Of a stretch of 64,000 nucleotides of DNA, positions 27,801 to 61,273 are shown one piece after another. The DNA comes from Maribacter ulvicola (GTDB lineage Bacteria > Bacteroidota > Bacteroidia > Flavobacteriales > Flavobacteriaceae). The stretch is taken from NCBI RefSeq assembly GCF_900155985.1, contig NZ_FTMA01000004.1, positions 124,001 to 188,000 of the forward strand, in the 5' to 3' direction. Below the pieces are notes generated by a model. It had not been told where the DNA came from, searched no databases, and was given only the letters and a program-made list of their open reading frames with translations. Made by a program: the position numbers and the translations under genes. Each line of letters opens with the position of its first letter. Position 1 is the stretch's first letter.

Positions 27801-27984
27801 AGAAATTACCGTCAAAATCTGTTGAAGTACCAGTGGTAGTATTTTGTATTACAACATTGGCACCCGGTACAGGCATACTTGTTTCATCTGTTACTGTACC
27901 GGTTAAGGTATACCCGTCTTGTGCGAATAGAGATATGTTGAGAAACAACATCATCACTAATCCTAATTTTGTTTTGAAATTCAT
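24802..27984 (-). CDS. SusC/RagA TonB-dependent outer-membrane transporter (alginate oligomers)
   Basis: A 1060-residue SusC-type receptor: signal peptide (1-21), carboxypeptidase-like beta-sandwich (about 24-100, GTVTDETSMPVPGANVVIQN), TonB box region, plug domain (LEEVVVVGYGTRKKSHLTGAV, then LIVVDGYPISGGIASVNPNDIESLEVLKDAASAAIYGSRGANGVILITTKKG in outline) and a 22-strand barrel to the C-terminal aromatic end LGLNLNF. It lies 10 bases ahead of susD. With the lyases around it, it should import alginate oligomers. The leader is about 260 bases and begins at a GntR-type operator. The gene itself is intact although its SusD partner is broken. Confidence 0.95.
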   Translation of the reverse strand: MNFKTKLGLVMMLFLNISLFAQDGYTLTGTVTDETSMPVPGANVVIQNTTTGTSTDFDGNFSITVSNGDVLEFSSIGYATKAINITGQQTLNVVLAEDASQLEEVVVVGYGTRKKSHLTGAVAKIGGDDVAAVQATRVDDALAGKLPGVLIQNQDGAPGADPKIQIRAASSISGASNPLIVVDGYPISGGIASVNPNDIESLEVLKDAASAAIYGSRGANGVILITTKKGKSGKASFSYNAYTSTSSKYRDNILQSGPEWAAHARAEIAAGNWGSTVATQDPAFLEYRLSAYEDSPGAISPEDWLFQNGTTTSHDFNMSGGTDDVNYFASIGYQNAEGVVITQGFERLNARLNVDAKLGDKFKTGVNFNGFTSKRDILGHDMRDLLRSYGVHPIYHTSESIAFVQDLDQQAQALGLAAFDNGYRGSGYEANSIYSLEPGMAAQDWHYGRANNGIGGSGDAGPAAKLDNTDSWEKTFFGNVSGYLQYSILDGLNIKTVLGGDMTDTQIYNHRLLGFDSRARDSQTFMNQTDLKVTSVLSETTLNYAKVLGKHDISAVAGVEFQSTNFKGTALSGANVPDTAILNFNLFDPADITVTERDENRVRESVFGRINYAYDDRFLASVSVRRDGDSRFGANKKYATFPALSLGWNVHNESFLEDNEILSQLKLRFSTGSLGTTSFLGSYDALSLLEPQATLYGTGYLIPNNVANENLTWQTNTETNYGVDLGFFNNRVRLGIDYYTSDIEDILINQSVSEVLGTTSIVLNSGDVRSSGMEFVLNVNAISNDDFSWSFNGNLSTVETEITDLGGLTELPQVIFGQSGRGAVFRNYVGGGIGEMWGLETIGDVEMEYLADGSRHPNSQTGESYVVDQNNDGVIDRTKTVEDGGDLVKIGQNTPDFYWGMSHNFRYKDFDMSFQLQGSHGAEVYNIDPLYYGSQWGGRLDYDSLDPNGDGIADHNGEYYERNRNQTDAMIQDASYVALRNLTLGYTINSDVTEKMGLNSVRIYGAATNLLYLWADNYTSYNPEGVKTTGGDYLGPTTYGAQVGASPIVRSFTLGLNLNF

Positions 27985-36151: not shown

Positions 36152-38470
36152 TTAGTACATAAGTTTAAGGGGAAGGTTTTCTTGTACGACCAGTTCTCCA
36201 GAATTTTTTATTTTGTTGTTAGAAGACCTATTGTTCTTTGCTCCCCATAGACGTGCAACTAATTTTACCGGATTGTCAATGAATTTATTATTGGTAAGAT
36301 TTACATTGACAATGCCGTAAGTATTAAGAAGTAAACCTTCTTCAGCTTTTGATCCAGAATTTGTAAATGTACTATTGGTCACTATTAAATTACCGCCAAC
36401 GGTAGATTCGTCATACCCACCTCTATAGTAATCTATGACATTATGGGAAATACCATCAAATAGGCAATTGTCAATGATTATGTTTTCGGCATTATATTCC
36501 CCTTTGTCATCGGTCTCTTCAGACAGTTCAATTCCGTTTGCACAATTTTTAATCTGTGTAGAAGTAAAGGTAATGTACTCTGAAAACGACCGTTTATATG
36601 CTTTTAAAACAAAGGCGAAATTAGAGATTTCACAATCAACAATGTTTAGATTATAAAGGCTGGACATATTGTTCTTTAGACTAGCGAAAGCATATTGTAC
36701 TTTATTGCCTACGAGTTGAATGTTTTTAAGTGTAAGTTCTCCTTTCGGATTCATTTCAAATGCCGGAGTTTCAGATGCCCCCTTGTATTCAATAATTGCT
36801 TTTGCATCAGATGTAGTAGCTAGAATCGTAATAGCTTTATTGATTTTTAATGGGGAATCTATATCGTAACGTTCAGCAGATAACACAATAGTGTCTCCAC
36901 TTCTTGCAGTTGAAATTGCACTGATAAGTTCGTTACTAGAACTAGCTGAATGTGTTTTGGCGGATTCGTTCTTAGAAGCTGCGTTAGAATACCAGTCGGT
37001 GCCATATTGCGAAACATCCATCATATCCCTTTTATTAACAGGCTTACCTACAACAGCACCAACCATATTTTTGTCAGCTCTAGAATTACCGAATAAATCT
37101 GCCGTGATCTGGTCAAATTCAAATCCATTATAAAGTTCAAAGTTTGATAGCGAATTATCGGGCATTAAAATATCACCATCAGCTATAGAAGTACCAAAAT
37201 CTTTTTGCGTAAGCCCATCAACAGTTTTAAAAATACCACCTTGATTGTTTATGACATTGCTTTTAAATCTAATACCGTCTATAGAATCATGTCTAATGAT
37301 AGGTTGCTTATCGCTTTTGTCATTATAAATAAGGTTATTTGCTACTGTAGTTCGTAAAGGTGTTGCAGATCTAATTTCAGATTTAGGTAAGTTATCTTTT
37401 TGGTCCGTATTAGAACCTACACCAAATTGCCATGGCGACACACAGTTGACCCAAGAATTATTTGCTACAACAACATCTGTAACTTGTAGGTATCTATTTA
37501 ATGGTGATTTTGGAATTCCGTTCATTACGGCAAGCGGACTCCTAAATGTTTGTCCCTTTAAATTATAGAAGTAATTGTTGGTTACCCAATGTCCGGTACC
37601 AATTAAACGAACACCGCCTATTTTTTTAGAATTTTCATCCCCTATAAAAACATTACCATCAATAATACAATAGTTACCATGTCTTGTAACCAAAGAACCT
37701 TCGCTTTTATAAAACACATTATTTCTGAACTCATTGAAATTGGTTTTGCTGGATATCACTTCTACCTCGCCATTACAATGATCGAAAAAATTGTTAGCGA
37801 CCAAGGTGTGACTAGGTGCCATTGAAGTAAAGCTATTACCAAGTTGTATGGTTTCGGCACTGGGTCCGCCTTTTGGGGGTCTAGGACCAAAATAATTATT
37901 GGTAATTTTATGGTAGTTTTTTATACTGTTATTACCTGCCAAATCAACCCTAACTGTAGGTCCTCTATTAGATTTCCCTGCAATGTAGCAATGGTCAAGC
38001 TCGTTGTGTCGACCTTTGAACAATACCCATAAATCTGTTTTATTTCGTTGAGATTTGTTAAAATCTATAATGGCACTGTTGGTGATTTTACAATGGTTAG
38101 CAACCGAATCTTCACTAATACCAAAATCGATAACGGCAGAAGAAGGAGACGATCCATTGGTAAAATGAAGACCATTAACGTTTAAATACGCACCGGCAAG
38201 TTTTAAATCAGATGTTCCGGTAATTAAAACCTTGCCAGGGGTTTTAGCCCGCAATGTAATGGGTTTTTTCTCAGTACCATATGCCACAAATTTGATGTTT
38301 ATATCTTTCCAATTTCCATTGGTCATAATAATGTCATCACCGGGTTTAGCTTCGGATATTGCGGTATTCAATTCGTTAATGTCGTTTACGGTAATAGCGC
38401 GGCTGCTTGATTTTTCATCACAGGAGTACAGGAGAAAAATAAATGCTAACAATAAGAAACACTTTTTCAT
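36152..38470 (-). CDS. PL6 alginate lyase lipoprotein, second copy
   Basis: A 772-residue two-domain PL6 beta-helix lyase with a lipoprotein signal (LFLLYSC, Cys17). The catalytic pair is Lys242 (VISSKTN) and Arg263 (TRHGNYC), matching the other PL6 residue for residue. The C-terminal beta-helix (about 500-770) parallels that of the first copy. It is the first gene of PL6-PL7. Lipid anchoring here, against the soluble signal of the other copy, suggests this one works outside on polymer and the other deeper on smaller chains; that split is inference. Confidence 0.93.
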   Translation of the reverse strand: MKKCFLLLAFIFLLYSCDEKSSSRAITVNDINELNTAISEAKPGDDIIMTNGNWKDINIKFVAYGTEKKPITLRAKTPGKVLITGTSDLKLAGAYLNVNGLHFTNGSSPSSAVIDFGISEDSVANHCKITNSAIIDFNKSQRNKTDLWVLFKGRHNELDHCYIAGKSNRGPTVRVDLAGNNSIKNYHKITNNYFGPRPPKGGPSAETIQLGNSFTSMAPSHTLVANNFFDHCNGEVEVISSKTNFNEFRNNVFYKSEGSLVTRHGNYCIIDGNVFIGDENSKKIGGVRLIGTGHWVTNNYFYNLKGQTFRSPLAVMNGIPKSPLNRYLQVTDVVVANNSWVNCVSPWQFGVGSNTDQKDNLPKSEIRSATPLRTTVANNLIYNDKSDKQPIIRHDSIDGIRFKSNVINNQGGIFKTVDGLTQKDFGTSIADGDILMPDNSLSNFELYNGFEFDQITADLFGNSRADKNMVGAVVGKPVNKRDMMDVSQYGTDWYSNAASKNESAKTHSASSSNELISAISTARSGDTIVLSAERYDIDSPLKINKAITILATTSDAKAIIEYKGASETPAFEMNPKGELTLKNIQLVGNKVQYAFASLKNNMSSLYNLNIVDCEISNFAFVLKAYKRSFSEYITFTSTQIKNCANGIELSEETDDKGEYNAENIIIDNCLFDGISHNVIDYYRGGYDESTVGGNLIVTNSTFTNSGSKAEEGLLLNTYGIVNVNLTNNKFIDNPVKLVARLWGAKNNRSSNNKIKNSGELVVQENLPLKLMY

Positions 38471-46212: not shown

Positions 46213-46245
46213 CTTTTAGCAACTTAAGTATTTAATTGCTAAAAG
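46213..46245 (-). terminator. hairpin overlapping the aldehyde dehydrogenase stop codon
   Basis: Stem CTTTTAGCAA (46213-46222) pairs exactly with TTGCTAAAAG (46236-46245) around a 13-base loop. The stop of the aldehyde dehydrogenase (46239-46241) lies in the right arm. The usual T-run after the stem is absent, so terminator function is uncertain. Confidence 0.4.
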
Positions 46246-47603
46246 AGATGCTTAACCTTCTTTACAAATTTTATAGGTAAATTATATGGAGGGTATCTTA
46301 GGGGCGCCTCAAACCAATTCGATTTTTTAATGATACTCTTATGATGAGAAAACAGATCAAAAGACGCCTTACCATGATATGACCCTATGCCGCTGGCACC
46401 GACCCCTCCAAAGGGCAATTTTTTATTGGTAATTTGAATAAGGGTATCATTGATTGCACCGCCACCAAAACTATATTTGGCGATAATTTTTTTCTGAAAA
46501 GATTTTTTGTTGGAAAATACATAAGTAGCCAATGGTTTCCCGTAGTTATTGATATGCTTTTCAATATCGGCTTCCGTTTCGTAAGAGATTATAGGAAGTA
46601 TAGGTCCAAAAATCTCACCTTCCATTAATTTGCTTTCAAGTTTTGGTTCGTTGACCAAAGTGGGAGATAGGTAATTATCCTCATCATTGGTTTCGCCACC
46701 AAAAAGAAGTTCTTGTCCCTTTAGCATTTGTTTTAGCCCTAAATAATGGGTATGGCTTACAGTTCGTGCATAGTCGGTGGATTTTTCTATATTTTGACCA
46801 TAAGAATCGGTAATGCTTTTTTTCAAGGCATGGACCAATTTGTCTTTTACCGATTGGTGTACCAAAATATAATCGGTAGCGATACAGGTCTGGCCGGCGT
46901 TTAAAAACTTGCCCCAAACAATACGTTTGGCAGCTTTTGAAATAGAAGCTGTTTCATCGACAATTGTTGGATTTTTTCCTCCCAATTCTAAGGTTACGGG
47001 AGTTAAATGTTTTGCTGCACTTTCGTAAACAATTTTACCCACGCGGGAACTTCCCGTAAAAAAAATATAATTCCATTTTTGGGCTAAAAGTTCTTGTGAG
47101 GTTTCTACACCACCTTCAATAACGGTAACATGTTCTGGTTTAAAGCTTGCCGTAATAATTTCAGATAAAATTTTTGCGGTATTAGGGGTAACTTCCGAAG
47201 GTTTTACTACAGCAGTATTTCCTGCAGCAACCGCTGCTATCAAGGGCGCAATAGCCAATTGAAATGGGTAGTTCCAAGGTGCAATAATCAACACATTTCC
47301 ATAAGGTTCTTTGTAAATAAAATCTGAAGAGGGCCAATTCATTAGGCTTGCAGAGACCCGTTGAGGTTGGGCCCAAAGAGACATTTTTTTCAATGTATGC
47401 TTAATGTCTCCCAATACAAACTGTGTTTCAGCGGCTAAAGTCTCAAATTTTGGTTTTTTAAAATCGGCGTAAATGGCATCACAAATGTCATCTTCTCTCA
47501 CAATTATTTCTTGCTGAAGTCGCTTTAAGGCCTTTTTTCTAAATTCTACATCCTTTGTTTGTTGCGTATTAAAGAAATCACGTTGTTTTTGTAGTTGCTG
47601 CAT
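46239..47603 (-). CDS. NAD(P)-dependent aldehyde dehydrogenase
   Basis: A 454-residue aldehyde dehydrogenase of the short, class 3-like group (no N-terminal extension). Blocks seen: APWNYPFQLAIAPLIAAVAAGN, KPSEVTPNT, FFTGSSRVGKIV, LELGGKNPTIVDE with the catalytic Glu, NAGQTCIATDYILV with the nucleophile Cys, and EIFGPILPII. The hydrophobic C-terminus (YNLPIKFVKKVKHLF) is typical of fatty-aldehyde dehydrogenases, which may be membrane-associated. It stands alone. The substrate is inferred to be a medium- or long-chain aldehyde. Confidence 0.92.
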   Translation of the reverse strand: MQQLQKQRDFFNTQQTKDVEFRKKALKRLQQEIIVREDDICDAIYADFKKPKFETLAAETQFVLGDIKHTLKKMSLWAQPQRVSASLMNWPSSDFIYKEPYGNVLIIAPWNYPFQLAIAPLIAAVAAGNTAVVKPSEVTPNTAKILSEIITASFKPEHVTVIEGGVETSQELLAQKWNYIFFTGSSRVGKIVYESAAKHLTPVTLELGGKNPTIVDETASISKAAKRIVWGKFLNAGQTCIATDYILVHQSVKDKLVHALKKSITDSYGQNIEKSTDYARTVSHTHYLGLKQMLKGQELLFGGETNDEDNYLSPTLVNEPKLESKLMEGEIFGPILPIISYETEADIEKHINNYGKPLATYVFSNKKSFQKKIIAKYSFGGGAINDTLIQITNKKLPFGGVGASGIGSYHGKASFDLFSHHKSIIKKSNWFEAPLRYPPYNLPIKFVKKVKHLF

Positions 47604-47802: not shown

Positions 47803-48693
47803 TTAAAGCGCTTCAAACGTTAAGTGCAGAAACAAGGTAGGCTTATCAAAAACCGAGGGTTCTGTATGTATTCCTAAGGCTACATTCATGGTAGTTTCGT
47901 TTATTTCCTTTAAGATAACAACATTACTGTAGTCTTTGAAGCCTAAATATTCACCTAGGATCAACTGTCTTTTTTCAGTAAACTGTACGGCACCAGTGGC
48001 GGCATCTATGGTAAAATCATCCTCATAAAGTTCCCACGTTGCATTGGTTACAGGGGTATAAAGCACGGTTGCCAGGGGTACGTTGTTCACATCTGCGGAG
48101 ACCGCGGTGATATGCTGCCCCTCAAAAATGCTGGCGTAAATAATTCCCATCAAGCTTTGGCCATCTTTATTATCTACCTTGTAGGTGCCATCGAATACAA
48201 AAGTAAATGTGTCATTATAGGAAGAACCTAGACCAACGGCATCCAAAAGATTATCGAAAGAAGGTAATAAAATGCCCAACCCGTCATCAATAGGTCCTGC
48301 ACCTTCCTTACCAGCGGTATAAGCTTTTTTTAGTCGCCAAGATTTCCCATCGGGTTTGGCAGAACCTCCGGTAAGTAATAGATCGAACGAGGGAGAAATG
48401 GTTACTTGTTTGGTTTCGCTAAAACTACCGTTAGCGCCGTTTACGGACATTACAACATCAAAAGTTCCCGCCTTGGTATACGAATATACAGGATCTTCTT
48501 CGGTACTACTGCCACCATCGCCAAAATCCCAGGTAATAGAGTCGGCGTTGGCTACGGTACCATTAAAGGTTACTTGAGTATCTTCTACCAAGAATTGAAA
48601 ATCTGCCAAGACCATAGGCACTTCCTCGTCATTGCTGCATTGCAGGAACAAAATACCTAAGATAAAGAGGTAGCAAGTTTTTATTTTTTTCAT
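47803..48693 (-). CDS. PKD-domain lipoprotein of the redox SusCD cluster
   Basis: A 296-residue lipoprotein from the ATG at 48693 (lipobox near ILFLQCSNDEE). The longer frame to 48804 overlaps the end of the SusD gene and is rejected. Residues 28-105 are a PKD domain (FNGTVANADSITWDFGDGGS, then YSYTKAGTFDVVMSV). The C-terminal 190 residues (KPDGKSWRLKKAYTAGKEGA, ILGEYLGFKDYSNVVILKEI) have no family I recognise but look like beta-rich binding domains of Bacteroidetes lipoproteins. It is the last gene of the run peroxidase, helix-cytochrome, SusC, SusD, PKD. A surface glycan- or ligand-binding role is inferred. Confidence 0.75.
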   Translation of the reverse strand: MKKIKTCYLFILGILFLQCSNDEEVPMVLADFQFLVEDTQVTFNGTVANADSITWDFGDGGSSTEEDPVYSYTKAGTFDVVMSVNGANGSFSETKQVTISPSFDLLLTGGSAKPDGKSWRLKKAYTAGKEGAGPIDDGLGILLPSFDNLLDAVGLGSSYNDTFTFVFDGTYKVDNKDGQSLMGIIYASIFEGQHITAVSADVNNVPLATVLYTPVTNATWELYEDDFTIDAATGAVQFTEKRQLILGEYLGFKDYSNVVILKEINETTMNVALGIHTEPSVFDKPTLFLHLTFEAL

Positions 48694-48727
48694 TTTGTTT
48701 ATTTTTATTGCGTTACCATTAATTGCT

Positions 48728-50200
48728 TCAATTCTTATCCCACCAAACCGGAGTATCAATGCGATTGGGACCTTGATTTGCAATTGCCGCGGAAACATTA
48801 ACATAGTTAGAATTCAGTTCAAAAGAAGAATATAAAAAGCGTGTGGGTAGTACGCCATTTGTCACGCCTTGTGAAAGGTTATCTGCGGTGCGTTGCTCAA
48901 TAACAGGGTATCCTGTACGCCGTATCTGTGTCCACCCTTCAAAATAATTTGGAATAACCGCTAACCACAATTGTGTGCCAATCTGTTCCTCATTGTTTAC
49001 ACCAGATAAACTTGCGACCGCAGAGCCCATGAAAGTTTCAATATCCGAAGCGTCTATTTCCCATTGCCCTAGGGCGGTCTTGATACCTTGGCGATACATT
49101 TGGTTTGCCACTACTGCATCTTCATCATATACTAGGGCCGCCTCTGCTCTAAACAGCCAAGTTTCTGCTGCACTTATAAGATAAATTTTACTATTGGGGG
49201 AAGACAAAGGAATACCAATATCTGATTTGTCCGCAAAATTGGAGGCACCAAAAGCAGTATCGTCCAAGCCATTCACCATTCCGGAATAGGTGCCGTTACT
49301 ATTTTTACTTACAAAAACAGATAATCTAGGATCTGCCGAACCCTGTAATTGATCAATCAACCTTACGGACATTTTAATTGAAGGAAACCCCGTGCGATTA
49401 TTAAACCAAGCATTACCAGTACCTTCGGTTTGGATGATGAACGCATTATGATCATTGGTTTCCATCAAAGGAGCGGTGAGACATTGGGCAACCGTGGCCT
49501 TTGACAGCGCATTGTCCGCAAAACGTATCCGCATTGCCAATCGCAACCGTACACTATTTGCAAAACGTACCCATTTTTCCATATCATTATTGAAAATGGG
49601 TTCTGAGTTAGGGTAGCCCAAAGCGGCATCTGCACCTTGTAATATTGAAATGCTAGATGTTAAACGGGCAATTAGGTCCTTGTAAATACTTTCTTGGGTG
49701 TCATAAGAGGGATGTACTATATTTTCGGTTTTTCCTTTTCCTCCTTGAGTATAAGGTATATCGCCATACGCATCGGTAGCCTTGGCATAGGCCAATACCG
49801 CAATGACATTGGCCATGGCATTACGAACGGGGTTCTGTGTTTTGGGAGAAGAGGTAATGGTCAATACTTCTTCTATGTGCCTAATGGCACCTCCGTAGAG
49901 TCCGTCGAACATGGCGTTGTAATTATTGTCGAAACCATCACCATATTGATCTGGAATTCTTGCCGTACTTCCGGCAACAAAATAATGCCCGTAGTGGCCT
50001 GCAAACCGTGAGGCAGATAGATCGGTGGTTTCTAAAAACAGGCTTCTGACCGCTTTTGTATATAGTGCGGCATCATCAATTGTGGTTACCGCATTAGGGT
50101 TACTGTAAAGGTCGTCTAACCGTTTTTCACAGGAAAATAGTACCGTAGCGATGATAGTTACCACCGCGATTTTTCTTGAAATGTGATATCGATTTTTCAT
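48728..50200 (-). CDS. SusD/RagB-like outer-membrane lipoprotein
   Basis: A 490-residue lipoprotein ([23 protein letters not shown]) of the SusD-like_2 type. Typical features are the helical repeat part ([26 protein letters not shown], then [15 protein letters not shown]), the central [11 protein letters not shown] helix and a C-terminal part ([32 protein letters not shown]). It lies 9 bases after the SusC gene. The ligand is unknown; this subfamily is often paired with transporters outside polysaccharide loci. Confidence 0.9.
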
Positions 50201-50209
50201 GATGGTTTG

Positions 50210-53200
50210 TTAAAAGTTAAGTTTAAGGTTTAGTCCGTAACTTCTTGTAGACGGTAACGAAGAGTGTTCAAAGGCCGTTCCCGTAGGTCCACTGCTGTAA
50301 CCTGCTTCGGGATCAATATCACCTGCCGCATTATATAAAAAGAAAAGGTTACGCCCAATGGCGGACAAACTAGCGGATTGTATAAAGGTATCACGTAGTA
50401 TAGTCTGTGGAAAACTGTAGGTCAGCGTAACTTCACGTACTTTTACATTACTGGCGTCTAAAACTTGATCTTTAGACACTTCATTGCTGAAAATATCAGT
50501 AAACTGTTTTAAGAATGCCGGTGCGGCAACTTCGTTCTTAAAGCCTGTATTTTCGTTGATACCATCTTCAATGATACCATTTTCCCTACCTACAAGACTA
50601 CGTTTGTCAGTTCCAAAGTAGGTACGGTAGGCGCGACCGTAAGAATAGAATTCCCCGCCTTGTTGTACACTGATCAAAGTACTTAACGATAAATTCTTAA
50701 AGCGGAAAGTATTACTGATGCCACCAAACCAATCAGGGTTTATATTTCCTAATAAAATACGCTCGCCCCTTTGTGTAAGACCGTTATCGGTAATAAGTTT
50801 TCTTCCAAAATTGTCCCTTTTGAAATCGTTTCCGTATAGTCCGCCGAATTCTTCACCAGGCCGTGCTTCTACTGAAACCGACCAAAGTCTTCCTAGTTCA
50901 ATACTAGAGAGCCCTTCGTTTAAAGATGCTACAAAAGAATTATTTTTGGTAAAGTTTACCCCCAAATTCCATTGAAAATTATCGGTTTCTACAGGAACGG
51001 CATTCAGTTGTACCTCGATGCCGTTGTTCTTTATATTTCCGGCATTGACTACCACAGTTTCAAATCCGCTTGCCCCAGAGATAGGAACCGCTTGAATCTG
51101 ATCTTTTGTATTCGTCTCAAAATAAGTGAAATCGAGCATCAATCGATTATTGAAAAAACCTAGATCAGCCCCAATTTCCCAAGATTTTGAAGTTTCTGGC
51201 CTTAAATCAAAAGAAGGCAGACTACCGGGAATTGAAGCCACGGTATAGGGTAGTGTTACCGTTTGGTCCACATTGTAAAAAGCTTGGGTACGATAAGCAC
51301 CGGTATCATTGCCGACTATGGCATGTGAAGCTCGCAGTTTTCCTTTACTGATGAATTTAGGGTTTAAACCAAAAGCTCGGCTAAACAGAAAACTCAAGTT
51401 TTCGGAATGATACCAATAGGAATTATTGTCCTTTGGTAATGCAGATGAATTATCGTTCCGTAACGAGGTGTCAAAATAAAGGTAGCCACCCCATTGAAAC
51501 TGACCCAAGGCATAATAAGATGTAATCGCTTTTTTGGTAATGCTTTCGCTACTAAAAGAATTTTTGTAATTACTGATATTATAAAAATCACGCACTTTGC
51601 TATCAAAACCATTAATATACTGGTTATTGAATGCCTCATCGCGGTGCATGGCACCCACACTGGCCGTCAATTTAAACCCGCCAATTTCTGCCTTGTAGCT
51701 CGCTAGCATATCAGAATTCCAAATTCTACTTTTTCCGTTGTTATGACTGTATTCTCCAAGTCCGCTTTTAATGGACTGCGCCCCTCTTGCACCGTGGCTG
51801 GTATAATCAAAAACACGGTAGTCCATACCCGTTCTGGCGGTAAGAGAGAAATTTTTGAACATTTTCCAATCTATGGCCAGCAATCCTTGAAAACGGTCGC
51901 GGTTATCTGTATTGCGCAGATGGTTCAGGGCCCAATATGGATTGTTAAAGGTGTTGTCTAAATTCCATTTAATTTCTTGGCCTTGGGCATTGATGGTATT
52001 GTTACGAACATCTGTCAGACGAATGTCACGCGGCATCAGAGAAAGTTGTAAGGCTGTATTCCCGTTACCTTCTGCCAAATCTGGACGGTTTTCTACTTTT
52101 GAAGTAATAAAGGTCATTTTACCGTCAATACTGAATTTATCGGTCAATTGAGATCTACCACGAATATTAAAGGTTTGTTTTCCCAAAGTATTATTACTGA
52201 CAATGCCCTGAATATCTTCGTCGGTAATTGACATTCGAAAAGAAGTTTTGTCTGAACGACCTTCAAAAGCGACGGTGTTGGCAATGGAATACCCTGTCTG
52301 ATAAAAATCTTTATATGGATTTCCTTGTGGAGAATAGCTATCTGTTTGTCCCAACCAATTGGTATATGATTGGCCCTCTAACCGTGGTCCCCAACTCCAT
52401 GAAAACGGATAATCCAATACGGGTTTCCCATCTGCGTTGATGGGTGCAAAATCATTAAAAAACCCTGTCCCGTACTCATTTTGAAAATTAGGGGTAAGCA
52501 TTATATCGGTGAACATAAATGTAGAACTTAAGCTAACCCCAATGCCAGGTCTTTTATTACCGGTTTTTGTGGTGATTAAGATGACACCATTAATACCTAA
52601 GGAACCATAGGCGGCAGAAGCGCCTGCACCTTTGAGAACGCTAATGGATGCTACATCATCTGGGTTGATATCGGAGAGCGCATCGCCGCGGTCTACCCCG
52701 CCACCTTGCCCCGTACCGCCACCGCCATTATCAATGGGGATACCATCAATGACTACTAATGGTCTGTTGTTGCCGCTAATAGTGGTAATGCCACGTAAAA
52801 CGATACGGCTAGAACCGTCGACCCCGGTATTGGATTGGGTAACCTGAAGACCCGAAACTTTTCCGTTCAGGGAATTCATTACGTTATTTTCACGAACAAC
52901 ATTTACCTGTGTTGCATCAACTTGGGAAATGGAATAGCCCAGTGATTCTTTGTCTCGTTCAATGTTCAGGGCGGTTACCACCACTTCATCTAACTTTTGA
53001 CCATCTTCTTCTAGCCTAACATTGATAATCACTTGCCCTGTTACGGGAACTTCTAAGGTTTTAAAACCTAAATAGGAAAATTCAAGTATGGCATCCTCCG
53101 CAACGTTGTTTAAGGAATAATTACCGCTGAAATCGCTCGTAGTACCAGTGGTAGTTCCTTTTACTAGAACGCTAACGCCCAATAGGGGTAGGTCAGAATC

Positions 53201-53290
53201 TTTTTCTAGTACCGTACCGGAAATGGATGTTTGGGCCATGCCTGATACAGTAAAGACCATTGCCGATAACAATCTTAATAGGTTTTTCAT
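50210..53290 (-). CDS. SusC/RagA TonB-dependent transporter (redox cluster)
   Basis: A 1026-residue receptor: signal peptide (1-19), carboxypeptidase-like domain (SISGTVLEKDSDLPLLGVSVLVKGTT), plug (KLDEVVVTALNIERDKESLG, SSRIVLRGITTISGNNRPLVVIDGIPID in outline) and a barrel to the end LGLNLKLNF. The plug carries a Gly-rich insertion (NGGGGTGQGGGVDRGDAL). It follows the beta-helix/cytochrome gene by 28 bases, so it seems to belong with the redox proteins. The imported compound is unknown. It shows no close likeness to the alginate SusC beyond family features. Confidence 0.94.
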   Translation of the reverse strand: MKNLLRLLSAMVFTVSGMAQTSISGTVLEKDSDLPLLGVSVLVKGTTTGTTSDFSGNYSLNNVAEDAILEFSYLGFKTLEVPVTGQVIINVRLEEDGQKLDEVVVTALNIERDKESLGYSISQVDATQVNVVRENNVMNSLNGKVSGLQVTQSNTGVDGSSRIVLRGITTISGNNRPLVVIDGIPIDNGGGGTGQGGGVDRGDALSDINPDDVASISVLKGAGASAAYGSLGINGVILITTKTGNKRPGIGVSLSSTFMFTDIMLTPNFQNEYGTGFFNDFAPINADGKPVLDYPFSWSWGPRLEGQSYTNWLGQTDSYSPQGNPYKDFYQTGYSIANTVAFEGRSDKTSFRMSITDEDIQGIVSNNTLGKQTFNIRGRSQLTDKFSIDGKMTFITSKVENRPDLAEGNGNTALQLSLMPRDIRLTDVRNNTINAQGQEIKWNLDNTFNNPYWALNHLRNTDNRDRFQGLLAIDWKMFKNFSLTARTGMDYRVFDYTSHGARGAQSIKSGLGEYSHNNGKSRIWNSDMLASYKAEIGGFKLTASVGAMHRDEAFNNQYINGFDSKVRDFYNISNYKNSFSSESITKKAITSYYALGQFQWGGYLYFDTSLRNDNSSALPKDNNSYWYHSENLSFLFSRAFGLNPKFISKGKLRASHAIVGNDTGAYRTQAFYNVDQTVTLPYTVASIPGSLPSFDLRPETSKSWEIGADLGFFNNRLMLDFTYFETNTKDQIQAVPISGASGFETVVVNAGNIKNNGIEVQLNAVPVETDNFQWNLGVNFTKNNSFVASLNEGLSSIELGRLWSVSVEARPGEEFGGLYGNDFKRDNFGRKLITDNGLTQRGERILLGNINPDWFGGISNTFRFKNLSLSTLISVQQGGEFYSYGRAYRTYFGTDKRSLVGRENGIIEDGINENTGFKNEVAAPAFLKQFTDIFSNEVSKDQVLDASNVKVREVTLTYSFPQTILRDTFIQSASLSAIGRNLFFLYNAAGDIDPEAGYSSGPTGTAFEHSSLPSTRSYGLNLKLNF

Positions 53291-53318
53291 ATTGGTTGGT
53301 TGATATGTTAGTATTTCA

Positions 53319-54839
53319 TTATGGGTTTAATGACGTTGTAACCTCATCTGGTTTCATTGCTAGAATATATTCTGCAACTGCAATTTTTGCGGCGTCATCG
53401 AGATAATCTTGCGGTGGCATTTCAGGATAATCTTCTCTAAGGTTTTTAGGGTTGTTAATATAATTGACGATACCTTGAGGATTGCCGTTGTGTATTGCTT
53501 GTATAATTTCTGTTGGAGGACCGATCAAGCGGTTTCCAAAAGCATGACAGCCGGCGCAGACTCCGTAATAGGTAAGTTCGCCCAATTCAGCTTTGCTTAC
53601 TGCTTTTATGGGTACAGGTTCTGGTAACATTAAAGTACGTACATCTTTTGTGTCTGTAATCTGGGCTGGCCCCCAATGATCGATGCCAAACGTGCGGTAT
53701 TTGTTCTTGTCCCTAATAGTTCCAGAGCCATTTCCATAAGCAAAAATATCAGGACCTTTAGTCTCTAATTGGGTCAACATAATTGCCTTTAGTTCCCCAG
53801 TGGTTTCATTGCCATTATCAAACATGATATTATCTAAAATAATAGTACGGTCAGGGTTGCCCTCAGAATTGGGATCATTGGCTTTAGGAGCACCTGTTGC
53901 CAAATCAACAATGGTAACACCGGTATTATTGTTACCTGTAATGATATTGTTTTCAAGGATTACGTCATCTGCAGCCATAATAAGAACACCTGTTCCTGTT
54001 GGAATTCCAGCGACCGTAGATCCGGGGGCACCAAAATTTGGTGTGTTGTTATTTACCACGAAGTTATTGCGAAAGATGACATCAAAAGTCGTTTTTATGG
54101 GAAGTCCCGGGGTAACAAATGCCAATAGTCCGCCTGTATTATCGTGTACATAATTGTTCTCGACCAAACAATGTCTTGAATTTTCAATTTCGATACCGGC
54201 GACACTATTGAATGTTTCGTTGTGGAGAACATCAACATTATCGCACATGCCTACATAGATGGCAGCATCTGCGATTTCACTTACTACATTATGTTCTATA
54301 AGTCCGTTTTTGCCAAATTGAGGAAAAATGCCATAGACGCCGGTATCAATGATCCAATTGTTTCGGATAACAAAGTTATTACCGGCCTGCCCCATGATAC
54401 CATTGCCTTTATAATCGATGATTTTAAAATTTTCGATTAGAATTCCGTTTCCGGAATAGAGAAAAGCATCGTTTATTTTCTTTTTACCGTCTAAGGTGGG
54501 CCATTCACCGTCTATGACGATACCTTGCAGTGCAATATTGTCTTTATCTATATATACGTTTTCGGAATAGGTACCGGGATAGACTCTGATTAAATCTCCA
54601 GGATTGGCATTTTTAACGGCTTCCTGTATGGATCCGCCACTTTTTACTTCAATAATTTTCCCGTTATAAGAATTTGATTGAGCAATTAAAGTGTCGTTAG
54701 TACTGCCCACGTTACGATAGGTCATACCCGGCGGTATGGGAACCGTTGCCTCGCTGTTATCTGCAAAATAGTTTTTTCCAACTAAAATTCCGATAGCCAA
54801 TAATGCAAAGGCACCTAAAAATTTAAAAATTGTTTTCAT
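53319..54839 (-). CDS. parallel beta-helix protein fused to a C-terminal cytochrome c domain
   Basis: A 506-residue exported protein. It has a signal or anchor helix (residues 7-25, no lipobox), a right-handed beta-helix (about 60-360, many NNxIxxN repeats such as GLIEHNVV and LVENNYV), and a cytochrome c domain (about 415-495). The heme site is CAGCH at 428-432 and the likely axial Met is Met474 in EMPPQDYLDD. This architecture resembles the TIGR03805-like beta-helix family, which has no known reaction. In the operon it lies 13 bases after the di-heme peroxidase. Electron transfer to or from a substrate bound on the helix is inferred. Confidence 0.87.
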   Translation of the reverse strand: MKTIFKFLGAFALLAIGILVGKNYFADNSEATVPIPPGMTYRNVGSTNDTLIAQSNSYNGKIIEVKSGGSIQEAVKNANPGDLIRVYPGTYSENVYIDKDNIALQGIVIDGEWPTLDGKKKINDAFLYSGNGILIENFKIIDYKGNGIMGQAGNNFVIRNNWIIDTGVYGIFPQFGKNGLIEHNVVSEIADAAIYVGMCDNVDVLHNETFNSVAGIEIENSRHCLVENNYVHDNTGGLLAFVTPGLPIKTTFDVIFRNNFVVNNNTPNFGAPGSTVAGIPTGTGVLIMAADDVILENNIITGNNNTGVTIVDLATGAPKANDPNSEGNPDRTIILDNIMFDNGNETTGELKAIMLTQLETKGPDIFAYGNGSGTIRDKNKYRTFGIDHWGPAQITDTKDVRTLMLPEPVPIKAVSKAELGELTYYGVCAGCHAFGNRLIGPPTEIIQAIHNGNPQGIVNYINNPKNLREDYPEMPPQDYLDDAAKIAVAEYILAMKPDEVTTSLNP

Positions 54840-54852
54840 TGTGTTGTTTTTT

Positions 54853-56043
54853 TTATGTTGATGGTTGTAGTCCAGAGGGTAAACGTTCTGGTATTTGTGG
54901 GATAAATGTTTCGTCTGTCAAAGTTTTTAAGAAGTCTACCAATCTATCCAGCTCGTAGTTAGACAGTTCGGGTTCCCAAATATGCCAATGGATAATTAGG
55001 TTTTCATCTTTTGGAACGGCATGACCACGACCTTGGGTATAGAACTCCACCGTTTCACGAAGGGTTTTAAATTTGCCGGAATGCATATATGGTGCTGTTT
55101 TGGCAATATTGCGGAGGCTTGGTACCTTAAAAGCGCCCCTAAGGGTGGTATCTTTAAAGGGTACTTGTGCCCCTGGATCTAAGGGCAGTCCGTTAGGTTC
55201 TGGAGATCCAATAACGGCAAATTGCTGGTTAGTGAAAAGGGGTGGTGTATGGCATTCGGCGCATCGGGCCACAAAAGAACGAAAAATGTTCATGCCTTCA
55301 ATTTCATTTGCGTTTAGGGCTTCGTGATAGCCGTGCGCATAATGATCATATTTACTGTTCAATGAAATCAAGGACGATTGAAAAGCAGAGATGGCGGTAT
55401 ATATTTCATGCAATTCAATTGCCTCGTGTATTTTCTTGTTAGGGTAGGCCTCTGCGAACATTACCCTATATTCCTCTATGGCGTTTAAGCTCTCTAAAAG
55501 ATGTTTTGGTGTATTGTTCATTTCTTCTGCAGCAAACAGTGGTTCTTGCATTTGTTGTTCTAACGTGGTTGCACGACCGTCCCAAAAGAGTTTTTTTAGA
55601 TAGGCAACATTCCATAAAGTAGGAGCGCCACGTTTTGTTTTCTGACCATTGTGGCCAATACTTGTAGGCAGACCGTCTGCAAATCCTTTTTTGGGATCAT
55701 GGCATGTTGCGCAAGAAACCGTGCCATCGCCAGACAAAACAGGATCAAAAAAGAGATAGCGCCCTAAATCAATTTGCTGTGGAGAAAAACCATCACGAAT
55801 TTCGGGCAGCGACGTCTGTAGGCCACCTACGCCATTATCGTGGGGAGAATCATACTGTTGGTAGAGGTTAACAGCAATACATTGGTTACTTGAGTTTTTC
55901 TTAAAACCAGGTGGACATTGGGTCTTTAATTTTAAAACGGTTACATAGGATTGGGAAACATCCTTTGAAATCAAGAAAAGCATGATGGCTATCAAGAAAA
56001 CTCCTGATAGTCCTGATTTTAATACCAAACTTTTTCTTTTCAT
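54853..56043 (-). CDS. di-heme cytochrome c peroxidase (MauG/CCP family)
   Basis: A 396-residue exported protein with an N-terminal membrane segment (11-25) and the two heme sites CATCH at 111-115 and CAECH at 261-265. The family blocks are LGRYLFFDPVLSGDGTVSC, GRATTLEQQ, LRGAFKVPSLRNIAKTAPYMHSGKF with the likely ligand Met320, and DRLVDFLKTLTDE. CCP members reduce peroxide; MauG members oxidise a protein. A CPPGFKKNSSNQC segment near 43-55 precedes the first domain and is not part of the usual CCP core. It leads the operon of helix-cytochrome, SusC, SusD and PKD lipoprotein. Confidence 0.92.
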   Translation of the reverse strand: MKRKSLVLKSGLSGVFLIAIMLFLISKDVSQSYVTVLKLKTQCPPGFKKNSSNQCIAVNLYQQYDSPHDNGVGGLQTSLPEIRDGFSPQQIDLGRYLFFDPVLSGDGTVSCATCHDPKKGFADGLPTSIGHNGQKTKRGAPTLWNVAYLKKLFWDGRATTLEQQMQEPLFAAEEMNNTPKHLLESLNAIEEYRVMFAEAYPNKKIHEAIELHEIYTAISAFQSSLISLNSKYDHYAHGYHEALNANEIEGMNIFRSFVARCAECHTPPLFTNQQFAVIGSPEPNGLPLDPGAQVPFKDTTLRGAFKVPSLRNIAKTAPYMHSGKFKTLRETVEFYTQGRGHAVPKDENLIIHWHIWEPELSNYELDRLVDFLKTLTDETFIPQIPERLPSGLQPST

Positions 56044-56178
56044 AGGTTGTGCTGAACGTTCTCAGTTTTACTATTTCCGAAGTAGACATAGGAGTGCGTT
56101 CTTACACGAATAAATAAAGAATAAGGGAAAAGTGTAGGTTCTTTGGGGGCTTTGTGATGAAAAGTAGCTATACTGTGA

Positions 56179-57024
56179 CTAATGGGACATGTTCAGCTGA
56201 AGGACATCTTCAAAAGTATTTTTATAACTAGAGGAGACAGGTAATTGTTCAAACGGTACGTTTTGTACTATTAAGGCATAACCTTTACGAGTTCTTTTGA
56301 ATGATGCGATATGTGTTTTATTAACAATATACGAACGGTGGGTTTTAATAATATTGGGATTCTTTATTTTTCCTTCTAGTTCTTTTAAGCTCATGCGAAC
56401 AACTTCCTTAGCGGGAGAGTTTCCTTTTAAATAAAAAATATCGAGATAATTTCCGGATGACTTTACATATAACAGTTGATCATACTTAATAGCTAAGATC
56501 ACTTTGTTATTTTCTCCTGTAAGAGTTAACATTTCATCCTCTTTTTTTGTGTCATATGAGGGTGGGTGCTGTGCCAGTTCTTGAAAAGATGAGAATTTAT
56601 GTTGTAATCCTAAATACCAAACAAAAAGGAGGTAGGGACCTAACATTAAAAGGGTTACATGTTTAAAGGTCAAATAATACTCAGCCAGTTTTTCAGGGAA
56701 AGTATTGAGATCGGGGCTATAGAAAAAGTATATGGACGACGTAACCAATAATAGCTCAAAAAAGCACCATAGTATTAGACCGTAAATCTTGAAATTTTGT
56801 AACCCGAAAAGGGGTTTTAACACAAATTGACTACATAAAAGAATAGCACCACCAATAAGTACATAGTTTAAATAGAGCTCTTCAGCCCAACTGTTCATGT
56901 TAAAAGGGGCATATACCATTAAGAAAATAAAAACAAAACCTACCAGAAAACCTATTAGTAGGAGTTTACTTTTGGGAGTGGCCAAAAACAATATTTCGTG
57001 TTGGAAAAACTTTTTAAGATTCAT
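56179..57024 (-). CDS. membrane LytTR transcription regulator
   Basis: A 281-residue protein with four N-terminal membrane helices (about 20-40, 52-70, 78-98, 122-145). A linker follows, and then a C-terminal LytTR DNA-binding domain (170-275): IKYDQLLYVKSSGNYLDIFY, VVRMSLKELEGKI, IIKTHRSYIVNKTHI. This is the form without a receiver domain, in which the membrane part may sense directly. It lies 135 bases upstream of the peroxidase gene on the same strand and is the best candidate regulator of that operon. Confidence 0.88.
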   Translation of the reverse strand: MNLKKFFQHEILFLATPKSKLLLIGFLVGFVFIFLMVYAPFNMNSWAEELYLNYVLIGGAILLCSQFVLKPLFGLQNFKIYGLILWCFFELLLVTSSIYFFYSPDLNTFPEKLAEYYLTFKHVTLLMLGPYLLFVWYLGLQHKFSSFQELAQHPPSYDTKKEDEMLTLTGENNKVILAIKYDQLLYVKSSGNYLDIFYLKGNSPAKEVVRMSLKELEGKIKNPNIIKTHRSYIVNKTHIASFKRTRKGYALIVQNVPFEQLPVSSSYKNTFEDVLQLNMSH

Positions 57025-57331: not shown

Positions 57332-60300
57332 TCAGTATTCGTTATTCATGTATTCTGAAGGAGTCATCTCAAATTGTTTCTGAAAATTACGGCCAAAACT
57401 TGTGGCCGAATTGTATCCTACTATTTCGGCTACTTCAAAAATTCTATATTTTCCTGATTTCAGAAGTTCTGCCGATTTTTTTAATCGAGCAATATTAATA
57501 AGTTCGTTTGGGCTAAGGTTAGAGATGTCTTTTATTTTACGGTACAACGTAGACCTACTCATATTCATGATTTTGGCCAACGTTTCTACATTAAGATCAC
57601 TGTCAGACATGTTTTGATAAATTACCTCATCTAATTTTTTTATAAAGGTTTCATCTGTTTTAGTATTAGCTATGCTCTTAATATGTGCTAGCGGAGAACT
57701 GGCATAGTGTTCCAATATGTTTTTGCGATTCTCAATAATGTTGGTGATGTGTACGTTAAGATGCTTAATTGAAAACGGCTTCTCGATATAAGCATCTGCA
57801 CCAGACTCCAAACCTTTCATTTTGGCTGACATTGCGCTTTTAGAGGTTAGCAAAATTACCGGTATATGGCTGGTTTCGAGATTGGTTTTTATTTTTTTAC
57901 ACAAAGTAAATCCATTAATACCAGGCATCATAACATCACTTATCACCAGCTGAATATTATTTTCTTTGAGCAGATCCAGGGCAGCCTCCCCATTTGAAGC
58001 TTTCAGCACAATATATTTTTCCCTTAATTCTTTGGCAACAAATTCTAAAAGGTCAATACTATCTTCAACTAACAAAATACAATTACTATTAGAAACAAGA
58101 GTGGTATTGTTATTATTTGGCTGACGTTTATGGGTGTATTTTGGTCTTAATCTAAACTCTCTTTCTTGATGAATAGGAAGGACTAAAACAAAGCAGTTCA
58201 TCTTATTGTCATTTGTATTTAAATTTAGACAACCATTGTGCATTTCTGTTAAGGAACGGGCTAGGGCTAACCCTATTCCTGATCCTGTTTGTCCTTCTGT
58301 TCCAGTAGCTCTATAGAACGGCTCAAATATGCGCTCTTTTAATTGACTGGGAATAAGAGGTCCGTCATTTCGTAAAATGATTGTTACATCCGTTTCATTG
58401 GCAATTAGATTAACATCTACCATTTTGTCTGCATACTTGAAGGCATTACCAAATAAGTTGCCAATAATTTTTTTAAAAGCCTCTGGGTCAACACAAGCAA
58501 TAACCTGCTTATGTTCTGATCTAAATTTAAAATTTACTTGTTTGTCTTGTATGGCCTCACCAAACCTTTCATGCATATTATCAATTAAATCTGATATGTT
58601 CGTTTCTACAAAGGTTAAATCAACTCTTTCAATTTCAGTTTTTCTAAAATCTAATAATTGATTTACAAGATCTAAAAGATGATTCGTGTTTTTTTTGATA
58701 ATTGTAAGGTTATCTTTGACATCTGGTAGTTGATTTAACTTTTTTATCACTTTTTCAAGGGGGCTTTGAATTAAAGTTAATGGTGTTCTTATTTCGTGAG
58801 ACACATTAGTGAAAAATTCTATTTTAGCTTGGTATATTTCCTTCTCTTTTCTATTGTTTAATTGTTTTATTTTTTCAGCATTATTAGCCTTAATTTTTCG
58901 AGCATAGGTTATGAACCCTGCGAAAATTATGAATCCAATAATCAATAAATATAAGATATAAGCCATCTTGCTTTTCCAAAAGACCGGTAATACTTCAATT
59001 GCCAGTGGGTGGGTTTCTTTTCCCCATACGCCACTACTATTTTTTGATTTTACAATAAATTCATAGGTGCCAGGCGCAAGTTCCGTAAAGAAAACCTTAT
59101 GATCTTTTTTAAGATAAACCCACTTATCGTTTAAGCCTTTCATTTTATACCAATATTCTGTGTTTTCTGGTGCGGTATAACTTAATGCCGCAAATTCTAG
59201 ACTAAACGAAGCTTGTTCTGGAGTCAGTTTTAAACTTTTAAGAGAAGAAATAGATTCTGTAAGCGTAGCATCTTGTTGGCCAACAAAAACATCTTTATTA
59301 TTTATTTGCAGGCTTGTGATATATATAGGGGCACGATAGGTGTTTTGAGTAAATTCTTTTGGATTAAAGCTGATCATTCCATTTACGCTTCCAAAATACA
59401 TAGTACCGTTCTTGCTCTTATGTGCAGACATATAGTTGAAATTGTCACTACTAAGTCCATCTGCTTTGGTGTATATCTTTTTTTTACCGGTAATGGGATT
59501 GAAATTCACCAAGCCTTTAGAAGTACTTATCCATAAATTACCAGAATCATCTTCTAGAATAGTATAGAAAACATTGGAAGGGAAACCATTTTGTGTGCCA
59601 AACCTTAAGAAGGTATTATTCTTGGAATCAAAAAGGTTGAGCCCATCTTCAGTACATATCCAGATGTTTTTTTTAGAGTCTTGAAAGAGGTAATTAATGT
59701 GATTGTTAGAAATACTTTGAGAATTTTCTGGACTATAGGAATAAACCGTTTTTTTATTTGTTTCTGGATTAAATGACATTATTCCGCTAAAATAGCCTCC
59801 TGTCCAAAACACACCCTCGTCATCTTCTAATAAACAATAATAACCCTGATTTGAAGGAAAAATATCAAATGGTATAAATTTTTTGGAAACACTATCAAAA
59901 GTTTTTATTCCAACCGTGCTAATGTAGTATAATTCATCATTCCTCCCTTTATAAATAGCATATACAAAATCACTAGAAATACCGTCATCCCTACCATAAT
60001 GCTCAATGATGTTGTTTGTTTTAATATCAAGTACATCTATTCCATTTTCGAACATACCAATATATAGTTTGTCTTCATTAGGGTACAGGGCATGAATATT
60101 ATAATGGGAAAGAATCCCTTTTTTATCTTTTTCTTGAGAGGTAAAGTTGGTAAATATATTGGTGGTGGGATTTAATTTATTAAGCCCGCCATCTTCTGTA
60201 CCTATCCAGAGGTTACCATATTTGTCTTCACAAATTTCTCGTATAGCATTTCCGTTTAGTGAATTTTGTGAAGATTTAGGGAAGTATTTTTTAAATGGAG

Positions 60301-61273
60301 TATATTGTTTAGGTTGGTAATTGATTCCACCAAAGTATGTGCCTGCCCATACCCCTCCTTCATTATCTACCGTTAAAGTATAAACGGCATTATCGCTTAG
60401 GGCGTATGGGTCATCATAATCTTTTGTTAGATTAATATATTCTTTAGTGAGCAAATCATAAATATGAATACCGGACTCTGAAGCTACCCATAGTTCATTT
60501 TCTCTTAAAGTAAAATCTCTTACATGGGGTTTTTCAGAACCAAAAAAGTCTACATTTTTAGATTTTTTGGTGTTGATGTCAAATGATACAATGCCATGAT
60601 TAGAAGTGCCAATCAGAATTGTTGCCGGGTCAATTGAAAAAATTTCATTGACAGTAAAGGGTTTTTCATTTGTAGAATTTGTAGTGTGTTTAAAAGCTTC
60701 AAAATCATCTGTTTCATAATTGTAATGATAAAGATGAGAGTTTGATGATGTCCAGATATCATCTCCTATTGTAAGGACATCGGTAGCATAAAAATAATCT
60801 TTTGGTAAAAACCAATGGCATTTCTCTTCAGATAAATTATATCTTACCAATGTACCGTTGGCAAGAAACCAGAGGTTACCTTTAGAATCTCCGGTTATTT
60901 CCCAAATCTGACTATTTTTGGTGCCTTCAATGAAATGAAAATTTTCATTCTGCTCATTGTATATATATAATCCGCTGGCAGTACCTACCCAAAGTTTTCC
61001 TTCATATTCATGTAAACTTAAAATGTAATTACTATTAAGGGTATTTGGTTGTTCTTCATCTCTTTGGAACAGTCTAAAATTATAGCCGTCAAATCTATTG
61101 AGTCCATTTTTGGTGCCAAACCACAAAAAACCTTTTTTATCTTGAAGAGAGCTCATTACCGTATTATGAGACAAGCCATTTTCAACCATATAATGATCAA
61201 AGTAAATTTCTTGCCCATATGTTAGAATGATGGGGAGAGTTAAAAATAGTAAGCTTAGTTTAATCTTTTTCAA
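57332..61273 (-). CDS. hybrid two-component system sensor (HTCS)
   Basis: A 1313-residue one-protein signalling chain. Order: signal peptide (1-20), about 14 two-component-regulator propeller repeats (to about 690, such as GKLWVGTASGLYIYN), a Y_Y_Y domain (to about 770), one membrane helix (ILYLLIIGFIIFAGFITYA), HisKA (FFTNVSHEIRTPLTLIQSPL), HATPase (GLALARSLTEMHNG), receiver (LVISDVMMPGINGF), and a C-terminal AraC helix-turn-helix (MSRSTLYRKIKDISNLSPNE, then VAEIVGYNSATSFGRNFQKQF). HTCS proteins sense oligosaccharides and switch on nearby loci. Its target could be the redox SusCD cluster on the same strand or a gene set outside the window. Confidence 0.96.
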   Translation of the reverse strand: MKKIKLSLLFLTLPIILTYGQEIYFDHYMVENGLSHNTVMSSLQDKKGFLWFGTKNGLNRFDGYNFRLFQRDEEQPNTLNSNYILSLHEYEGKLWVGTASGLYIYNEQNENFHFIEGTKNSQIWEITGDSKGNLWFLANGTLVRYNLSEEKCHWFLPKDYFYATDVLTIGDDIWTSSNSHLYHYNYETDDFEAFKHTTNSTNEKPFTVNEIFSIDPATILIGTSNHGIVSFDINTKKSKNVDFFGSEKPHVRDFTLRENELWVASESGIHIYDLLTKEYINLTKDYDDPYALSDNAVYTLTVDNEGGVWAGTYFGGINYQPKQYTPFKKYFPKSSQNSLNGNAIREICEDKYGNLWIGTEDGGLNKLNPTTNIFTNFTSQEKDKKGILSHYNIHALYPNEDKLYIGMFENGIDVLDIKTNNIIEHYGRDDGISSDFVYAIYKGRNDELYYISTVGIKTFDSVSKKFIPFDIFPSNQGYYCLLEDDEGVFWTGGYFSGIMSFNPETNKKTVYSYSPENSQSISNNHINYLFQDSKKNIWICTEDGLNLFDSKNNTFLRFGTQNGFPSNVFYTILEDDSGNLWISTSKGLVNFNPITGKKKIYTKADGLSSDNFNYMSAHKSKNGTMYFGSVNGMISFNPKEFTQNTYRAPIYITSLQINNKDVFVGQQDATLTESISSLKSLKLTPEQASFSLEFAALSYTAPENTEYWYKMKGLNDKWVYLKKDHKVFFTELAPGTYEFIVKSKNSSGVWGKETHPLAIEVLPVFWKSKMAYILYLLIIGFIIFAGFITYARKIKANNAEKIKQLNNRKEKEIYQAKIEFFTNVSHEIRTPLTLIQSPLEKVIKKLNQLPDVKDNLTIIKKNTNHLLDLVNQLLDFRKTEIERVDLTFVETNISDLIDNMHERFGEAIQDKQVNFKFRSEHKQVIACVDPEAFKKIIGNLFGNAFKYADKMVDVNLIANETDVTIILRNDGPLIPSQLKERIFEPFYRATGTEGQTGSGIGLALARSLTEMHNGCLNLNTNDNKMNCFVLVLPIHQEREFRLRPKYTHKRQPNNNNTTLVSNSNCILLVEDSIDLLEFVAKELREKYIVLKASNGEAALDLLKENNIQLVISDVMMPGINGFTLCKKIKTNLETSHIPVILLTSKSAMSAKMKGLESGADAYIEKPFSIKHLNVHITNIIENRKNILEHYASSPLAHIKSIANTKTDETFIKKLDEVIYQNMSDSDLNVETLAKIMNMSRSTLYRKIKDISNLSPNELINIARLKKSAELLKSGKYRIFEVAEIVGYNSATSFGRNFQKQFEMTPSEYMNNEY

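Follow-up and report, generated by a model that had tools for sequence, protein, structure and literature searches.

The window examined here is a stretch of 64,000 nucleotides from Maribacter ulvicola. The following genes and features, given in window coordinates, were annotated at the locus:

57332..61273, minus strand: HTCS hybrid two-component regulator (Pfam), a neighbour outside the unit
56179..57024, minus strand: membrane LytTR regulator, 281 aa (PF04397, 5.8e-15; hydrophobic segments)
56151..56178, minus strand: LytTR-type direct repeat TCACAGTATAGCTACTTTTCATCACAAA, 28 bp, half-sites 21 bp apart
54853..56043, minus strand: MauG/BthA-type di-heme c protein, 396 aa (CCP_MauG; two CXXCH)
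53319..54839, minus strand: right-handed beta-helix protein with C-terminal cytochrome c and N-terminal anchor, 506 aa (TIGR03805)
50210..53290, minus strand: SusC TonB-dependent transporter, 1026 aa (TIGR04056, 612 bits)
48728..50200, minus strand: SusD-like_2 lipoprotein lid, 490 aa (PF12771, 1.3e-76; lipobox seen in the sequence)
47803..48693, minus strand: PKD-domain lipoprotein, 296 aa from the corrected start (PF18911, 6e-10; lipobox FLQC-SNDEE)
46239..47603, minus strand: class-3 aldehyde dehydrogenase (ALDH), 454 aa (PF00171, 5.4e-86)

The listed start of the PKD gene was too early, and the lipoprotein start, MKKIKTCYLFILGILFLQC, lies at position 48693. With this correction the intergenic gaps are 13, 28, 9 and 34 bases, with 135 bases to the LytTR gene. 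The five same-strand genes behind a membrane LytTR regulator that a previous, sequence-only reading had described were found at these positions, and its statement that the interval 47803-57024 is free of glycoside hydrolases, lyases and sulfatases also held. That reading had missed the ALDH downstream and the 28-bp direct repeat located in the gap that separates the LytTR gene from the operon. With SusC and SusD present and no CAZyme in the unit, the locus does not qualify as a polysaccharide utilisation locus. Elsewhere in the window, a 772-aa PL6 (chondroitinase B family) protein (36152-38470) and a SusC-type receptor (24802-27984) represent a separate lyase cluster.

Gene order is conserved beyond close relatives. 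The order diheme, beta-helix, SusC, SusD, PKD, ALDH was also observed in Muricauda, Gelidibacter, Maribacter, Arenibacter and Flagellimonas, and because 13 other loci of several genera repeat it, the order is not due to chance. The proposal that the redox genes and SusC/SusD form one conserved unit is likewise borne out, SusC/SusD orthologues accompanying the heme pair in 9/9 cases; SusD orthologues of at least 59% identity occur only beside the core (9/9 genomes).

The core of the locus is the diheme/beta-helix pair. A total of 84 loci were compared, 80 from one genome scan and four from relatives; the scanned loci belong to Bacteroidota (Flavobacteriaceae, Cyclobacteriaceae and others) and to Gammaproteobacteria, including Zhongshania, Parahaliea, Microbulbifer, Shewanella and SAR92. 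Because the relative L032 and L048 are one record, not every locus is independent. The diheme gene adjoins the beta-helix gene in 81/84 loci across these two phyla, and the three remaining loci comprise two contig ends and one second copy in a genome where the other copy is paired. A second beta-helix/cytochrome copy with no diheme gene nearby was seen in Microbulbifer NKW57 (L093, 5331-6869), where the L072 copy is paired. Both core genes were present in the identical 17 of 299 family genomes, always adjacent. Co-inheritance is clear only in Bacteroidota, since the Spearman correlation of pairwise distances between the two core proteins was 0.87 there and only 0.34 in Gammaproteobacteria. Gene content, gene order and the conservation of the pair are direct readings of the sequences. 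Other genomes of the same genus that were searched lacked the beta-helix gene, with weak matches to the cytochrome domain only, and the region behind the topoisomerase gene varies within the genus; the cluster was therefore probably acquired.

Over half of the 84 cores lack a nearby transporter, and several lie among housekeeping genes. SusC/SusD is missing beside the core in about half of the core-bearing family genomes (8/17 family cores had no close SusD orthologue) and in all Gammaproteobacteria. Since the core exists so widely without SusC/SusD, a redox module whose importer is optional describes the cluster better. The dependence seems to be one-way, with SusC/SusD going with the core and the core independent of SusC/SusD. 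The sole core-less SusC-SusD-PKD triplet found, in genome G228 (L135, 4132-9540), is distant (49-54% identity); it adjoins TPR/MORN and DUF3857 proteins. Within Arenibacter, the SusC-SusD-PKD cassette lies between the pair and the ALDH in three loci (L046, L047, L050) and is missing in three others (L051, L052, L059). In Arenibacter aquaticus (L040), the beta-helix gene is followed by a 366-aa SusC remnant, SusD is missing, and PKD and ALDH genes remain, representing either a decaying cassette or an assembly fault. Furthermore, unrelated TonB receptors adjoin the core elsewhere: a 927-aa SusC-like receptor stands by the core in L034 and L141 with a GDSL lipase upstream, and receptors of 752-877 aa stand beside the core in 13 gammaproteobacterial loci. 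A two-domain cytochrome c is encoded upstream of the core in 29 loci. In Kriegella (L137, 12979-15300; L042), a DUF7133 protein with a C-terminal cytochrome c is encoded directly upstream of the diheme gene.

The closest solved protein to the SusC of the cluster was BT2264 (377 bits), whose structure was determined in a peptide-loaded complex (PMC11817032, PMC7782687); this transporter therefore does not imply glycans. The cluster shares with BT2263/2264-type loci a SusC/SusD pair and a surface lipoprotein, a PKD orthologue following SusD in relatives as well, but it contains redox proteins and a LytTR regulator instead of a CAZyme or peptidase.

The ALDH gene lies 199 bases downstream of the PKD gene, a position kept in most relatives with SusC/SusD. 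A class-3 ALDH is next in the operon in relatives with or without SusC/SusD, and in Woeseiaceae a different ALDH directly follows the pair. Across loci the gene is separated from the preceding gene by 61-536 bases and may have its own promoter. The M. ulvicola enzyme scored 398 bits against the solved fatty aldehyde dehydrogenase 4qgk. Lineage-specific neighbours include a GDSL lipase, a carboxylesterase, acyl-CoA thioesterases, a CoA transferase, an acetoacetate-CoA ligase, and carotenoid-isomerase-like and Baeyer-Villiger-like enzymes. The class-3 ALDH and the lipase/esterase-type neighbours faintly hint at a substrate that is lipid-like, an ester or aromatic, and these catabolic neighbours, which vary by lineage, may be there by chance. 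In a Flavobacteriales MAG (L067, 11488-15420), the pair is immediately followed by an SDR, a carotenoid-isomerase-like flavoprotein and an alpha/beta hydrolase, and in a Maribacter MAG (L036, 1956-3548) a related flavoprotein also follows it.

With regard to regulation, the LytTR protein contains three hydrophobic segments, and in about 20 loci the gene of an orthologue immediately precedes the diheme gene; in Gelidibacter a TetR gene takes this place. The direct repeat lies directly after the LytTR stop codon and is the only site with no mismatch in the 4.5-Mb genome. A site with at most one mismatch was detected in 8/20 LytTR-bearing loci compared with 0/59 others (1.6% for shuffles), a contrast that may in part reflect shared ancestry. 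A variant site in Arenibacter retains the ATAG-TTCATCACAAA core. The 21-bp half-site spacing of the M. ulvicola repeat can be likened to that of canonical LytTR sites, which consist of 9-bp direct repeats separated by 10-13 bp (PMC11347149). Control by the HTCS regulator was rejected, as its gene does not adjoin the core in relatives, and orthologues within the genus are found at other sites. Past the window end and beyond the HTCS gene, a plus-strand gene set (L030, 2157-11045) encodes a glycerate kinase, a UPF0261 protein, an MFS transporter, a PEP-hydrolase-like protein, a cupin, a DUF7133 protein ending in a cupredoxin, and ThuA; this set may be what the HTCS regulator serves.

The diheme protein matched CCP_MauG (Pfam, 3e-55) and, in addition to its two CXXCH motifs, retains the inter-heme Trp154, the distal Gln164, Pro168 and Glu174. 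Its invariant Tyr335 aligns with Tyr463 of BthA (a position match only), the ligand of the six-coordinate heme in an enzyme reported to reduce H2O2 efficiently (PMC6405878). In an alignment with 1zzh, Tyr335 occupies the position of the Met ligand of canonical peroxidases, a placement that by sequence would put the protein among MauG/BthA-like enzymes. The AF2 model of this protein was mediocre (pLDDT 72). The CCP_MauG fold, the bacterial cytochrome c peroxidases that were its closest solved sequences by E-value, and the activity of BthA with the same Tyr ligand are each consistent with ordinary peroxide respiration or detoxification, in which the diheme protein would act as a peroxidase supplied with electrons by the beta-helix/cytochrome, and SusC/SusD would merely share the operon. 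We judge this improbable: the protein has Tyr in place of the Met ligand that canonical bacterial cytochrome c peroxidases have at the high-potential heme, the core has become linked to TonB transporters and ALDH repeatedly and independently, and an electron donor would not need the invariant, enzyme-like groove of its partner.

That partner, the beta-helix protein, scored 174.2 bits against TIGR03805, above the cut-off of 141.5 (198.4 for the Zhongshania orthologue). Its C-terminal cytochrome c has an invariant CXXCH (428-432) and an invariant Met474. A sequence search of the PDB with the beta-helix gave no match, and the profile of the protein matched cytochromes c only. The AF2 model was good (pLDDT 88), and its beta-helix domain is predicted to adopt an AlgE-type C5-epimerase fold, the best structural matches being AlgE6 and AlgE4 (VIA-align Z 32, rmsd 2.1, 280 residues). 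Groove residues Y169, Y195, E217, E219, N220 and F241 were invariant in 84/84 sequences and, together with the invariant Asp191, are common to the beta-helices paired with TIGR03806 proteins, a family represented here by five sequences. Met149, Phe172 and Met198 are invariant only in MauG-paired beta-helices, the corresponding residues in TIGR03806-paired beta-helices being K, Y and Q. Judged by strand register, the invariant residues would line the one helix face where AlgE binds its substrate. The AlgE motif is YGFDPH, and the beta-helix protein carries YGIFPQ in its place. In the AlgE numbering that we assume, and by strand register only, the catalytic Tyr would be kept and the Asp and His would be replaced by Phe172 and Gln174.

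MauG matures methylamine dehydrogenase by TTQ biosynthesis. By analogy, the diheme enzyme may modify a groove Tyr or Met of the beta-helix into a protein-derived cofactor or radical, making the beta-helix/cytochrome the working dehydrogenase. The near-obligatory one-to-one pairing of the two genes, the retained MauG-type Tyr ligand, Glu, Gln, Pro and Trp, the invariant His-Trp-His (352-354) of the diheme protein and the groove differences at positions 149, 172 and 198 all agree with such maturation. However, no Trp of the beta-helix protein is conserved above 68% and its only invariant Cys are those of the heme, so TTQ, CTQ and kynurenine chemistry is unlikely, and a Trp-derived cofactor (TTQ or kynurenine) in the beta-helix was rejected. 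Overall, maturation is considered unlikely. Quite improbable is a further extension, in which a groove Tyr/Met cofactor made by the diheme enzyme would define a new class of hemoprotein dehydrogenase on a lyase/epimerase fold, one that would work with various importers on hydrolase-resistant compounds in two phyla.

Conserved methionines of the beta-helix also bear on acquisition of copper or iron, in which the diheme enzyme, like MbnH or SACCP, would oxidise a partner protein or a metal chelate and the TonB transporter would import the metal or metallophore. Met149 and Met198 are invariant and Met288 is near-invariant, NosD was a structural neighbour of the beta-helix (Z 28), the Zhongshania TonB receptor scored best with a siderophore-receptor model (below its cut-off), and MbnH (TIGR04039) was the best NCBIfam model for the diheme protein at 227 bits. 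This score is below the TIGR04039 cut-off of 363, however, and MbnP (TIGR04052) was absent from the cluster, with only a weak partial match elsewhere; copper uptake through MbnP was rejected, this partner being missing. Furthermore, the beta-helix domain has neither a conserved Trp for kynurenine nor an invariant His, and the ALDH, lipase and esterase neighbours are unsuited to metal uptake. Metal acquisition is thus rather unlikely.

Where oxidation would take place depends on the location of the beta-helix protein. An N-terminal hydrophobic segment was present in 84/84 sequences, with no lipobox by a simple pattern test, and the segment is predicted to be uncleaved and seated in the inner membrane. 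The anchor, the Tyr at the ligand position, the conservation of the groove motif and the regulator site are all features of the encoded sequences. Because the hydrophobic anchor is conserved and a lipobox is absent, the beta-helix/cytochrome most likely sits in the inner membrane and faces the periplasm, with SusC, SusD and the PKD protein as the sole outer-membrane parts. The sequence-only reading had suggested an oxidative attack on a surface-bound polymer followed by uptake; the anchor without a lipobox in 84/84 sequences argues against this, and surface oxidation was dropped as the leading reading. Oxidation is probably periplasmic and follows uptake, an order that depends on predicted localisation only.

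We tentatively favour an inner-membrane-anchored module for periplasmic oxidation, equipped with its own importer, as plausible yet far from assured; its chemistry, its step order and a lipid-like, ester or aromatic substrate are what we infer. SusC/SusD and the PKD lipoprotein would capture a compound at the cell surface for TonB-driven uptake into the periplasm, where the beta-helix protein, held at the inner membrane, would bind it in the AlgE-like groove. The MauG-type diheme enzyme could then use H2O2 or O2 to oxidise the bound compound by way of a high-valent diheme state, while the cytochrome c domain of the beta-helix protein would exchange electrons with the respiratory chain. The cytoplasmic class-3 ALDH would finish an aldehyde product, and the membrane LytTR regulator would control the operon via the one direct repeat.

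No paper in the literature searched describes the module, in agreement with the earlier statement that no described system of this make-up was known, and mentions of MauG in Bacteroidota papers (e.g. Fjoh_2477 beside PhoX) were unrelated to it. The module is a variant of the TIGR03805/TIGR03806 pair already in NCBIfam, in which the partner is an SO2930-family diheme c-type cytochrome. The beta-helix family, the groove residues and an adjacent diheme c protein are shared, and TIGR03805 and TIGR03806 genes are adjacent in neighbouring genomes. The present module differs in its MauG-type partner, which matches MbnH/MauG models rather than TIGR03806, in the cytochrome c and lipobox-free membrane anchor of the beta-helix protein itself, in the groove Met/Phe positions, and in the attached ALDH and SusC/SusD or other TonB transporter. 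TIGR03806-like domains scoring below cut-off also form part of 1000-2700-aa open frames in many genomes of the same genus (e.g. L123, L124). To our knowledge, neither the TIGR03805 beta-helix nor its TIGR03806 partner has a known function.

Among characterized diheme enzymes, MauG and BthA resemble the M. ulvicola protein in fold, Tyr ligand position and distal Gln/Pro/Glu, with the inter-heme Trp as in MauG. The protein nevertheless scored only 204 bits with the MauG model TIGR03791 (cut-off 444), has no other mau-type gene among its annotated neighbours, contains an invariant HWHI..P segment and has a beta-helix partner. The MbnH/MbnP and SACCP/MopE systems also consist of a MauG-like diheme enzyme and a partner, and their genes often lie close to a TonB transporter, as seen for MbnH/MbnP pairs in methanotrophs (PMC3621798); they differ from the present module, which has no MbnP/MopE partner, no conserved partner Trp and a score short of the TIGR04039 cut-off. 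RoxA/RoxB and the FadCcps PA2077/PA2078 are periplasmic or secreted diheme Ccp-type oxygenases of hydrophobic carbon, and the RoxA product is an aldehyde needing oxidation (PMC5979037, PMC4496055). They are about twice the size of the 396-aa enzyme (RoxA-type proteins are ~65-72 kDa; PMC4496055), and no beta-helix partner is reported for them there. For the beta-helix domain, the AlgE mannuronan C5-epimerases that match it best in structure differ in the absence of the cytochrome c fusion.

Very few substrates are known for MauG-type diheme enzymes, and no function was found for TIGR03805 beta-helices. By tying both families to a TonB importer and an ALDH, the cluster provides a testable route to a substrate for each. 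A conserved pair repeatedly joined to importers points to an undescribed oxidation of imported compounds within the cell envelope. If this is correct, SusC/SusD systems would serve oxidative as well as hydrolytic catabolism, with oxidation taking place on the inner membrane after import.
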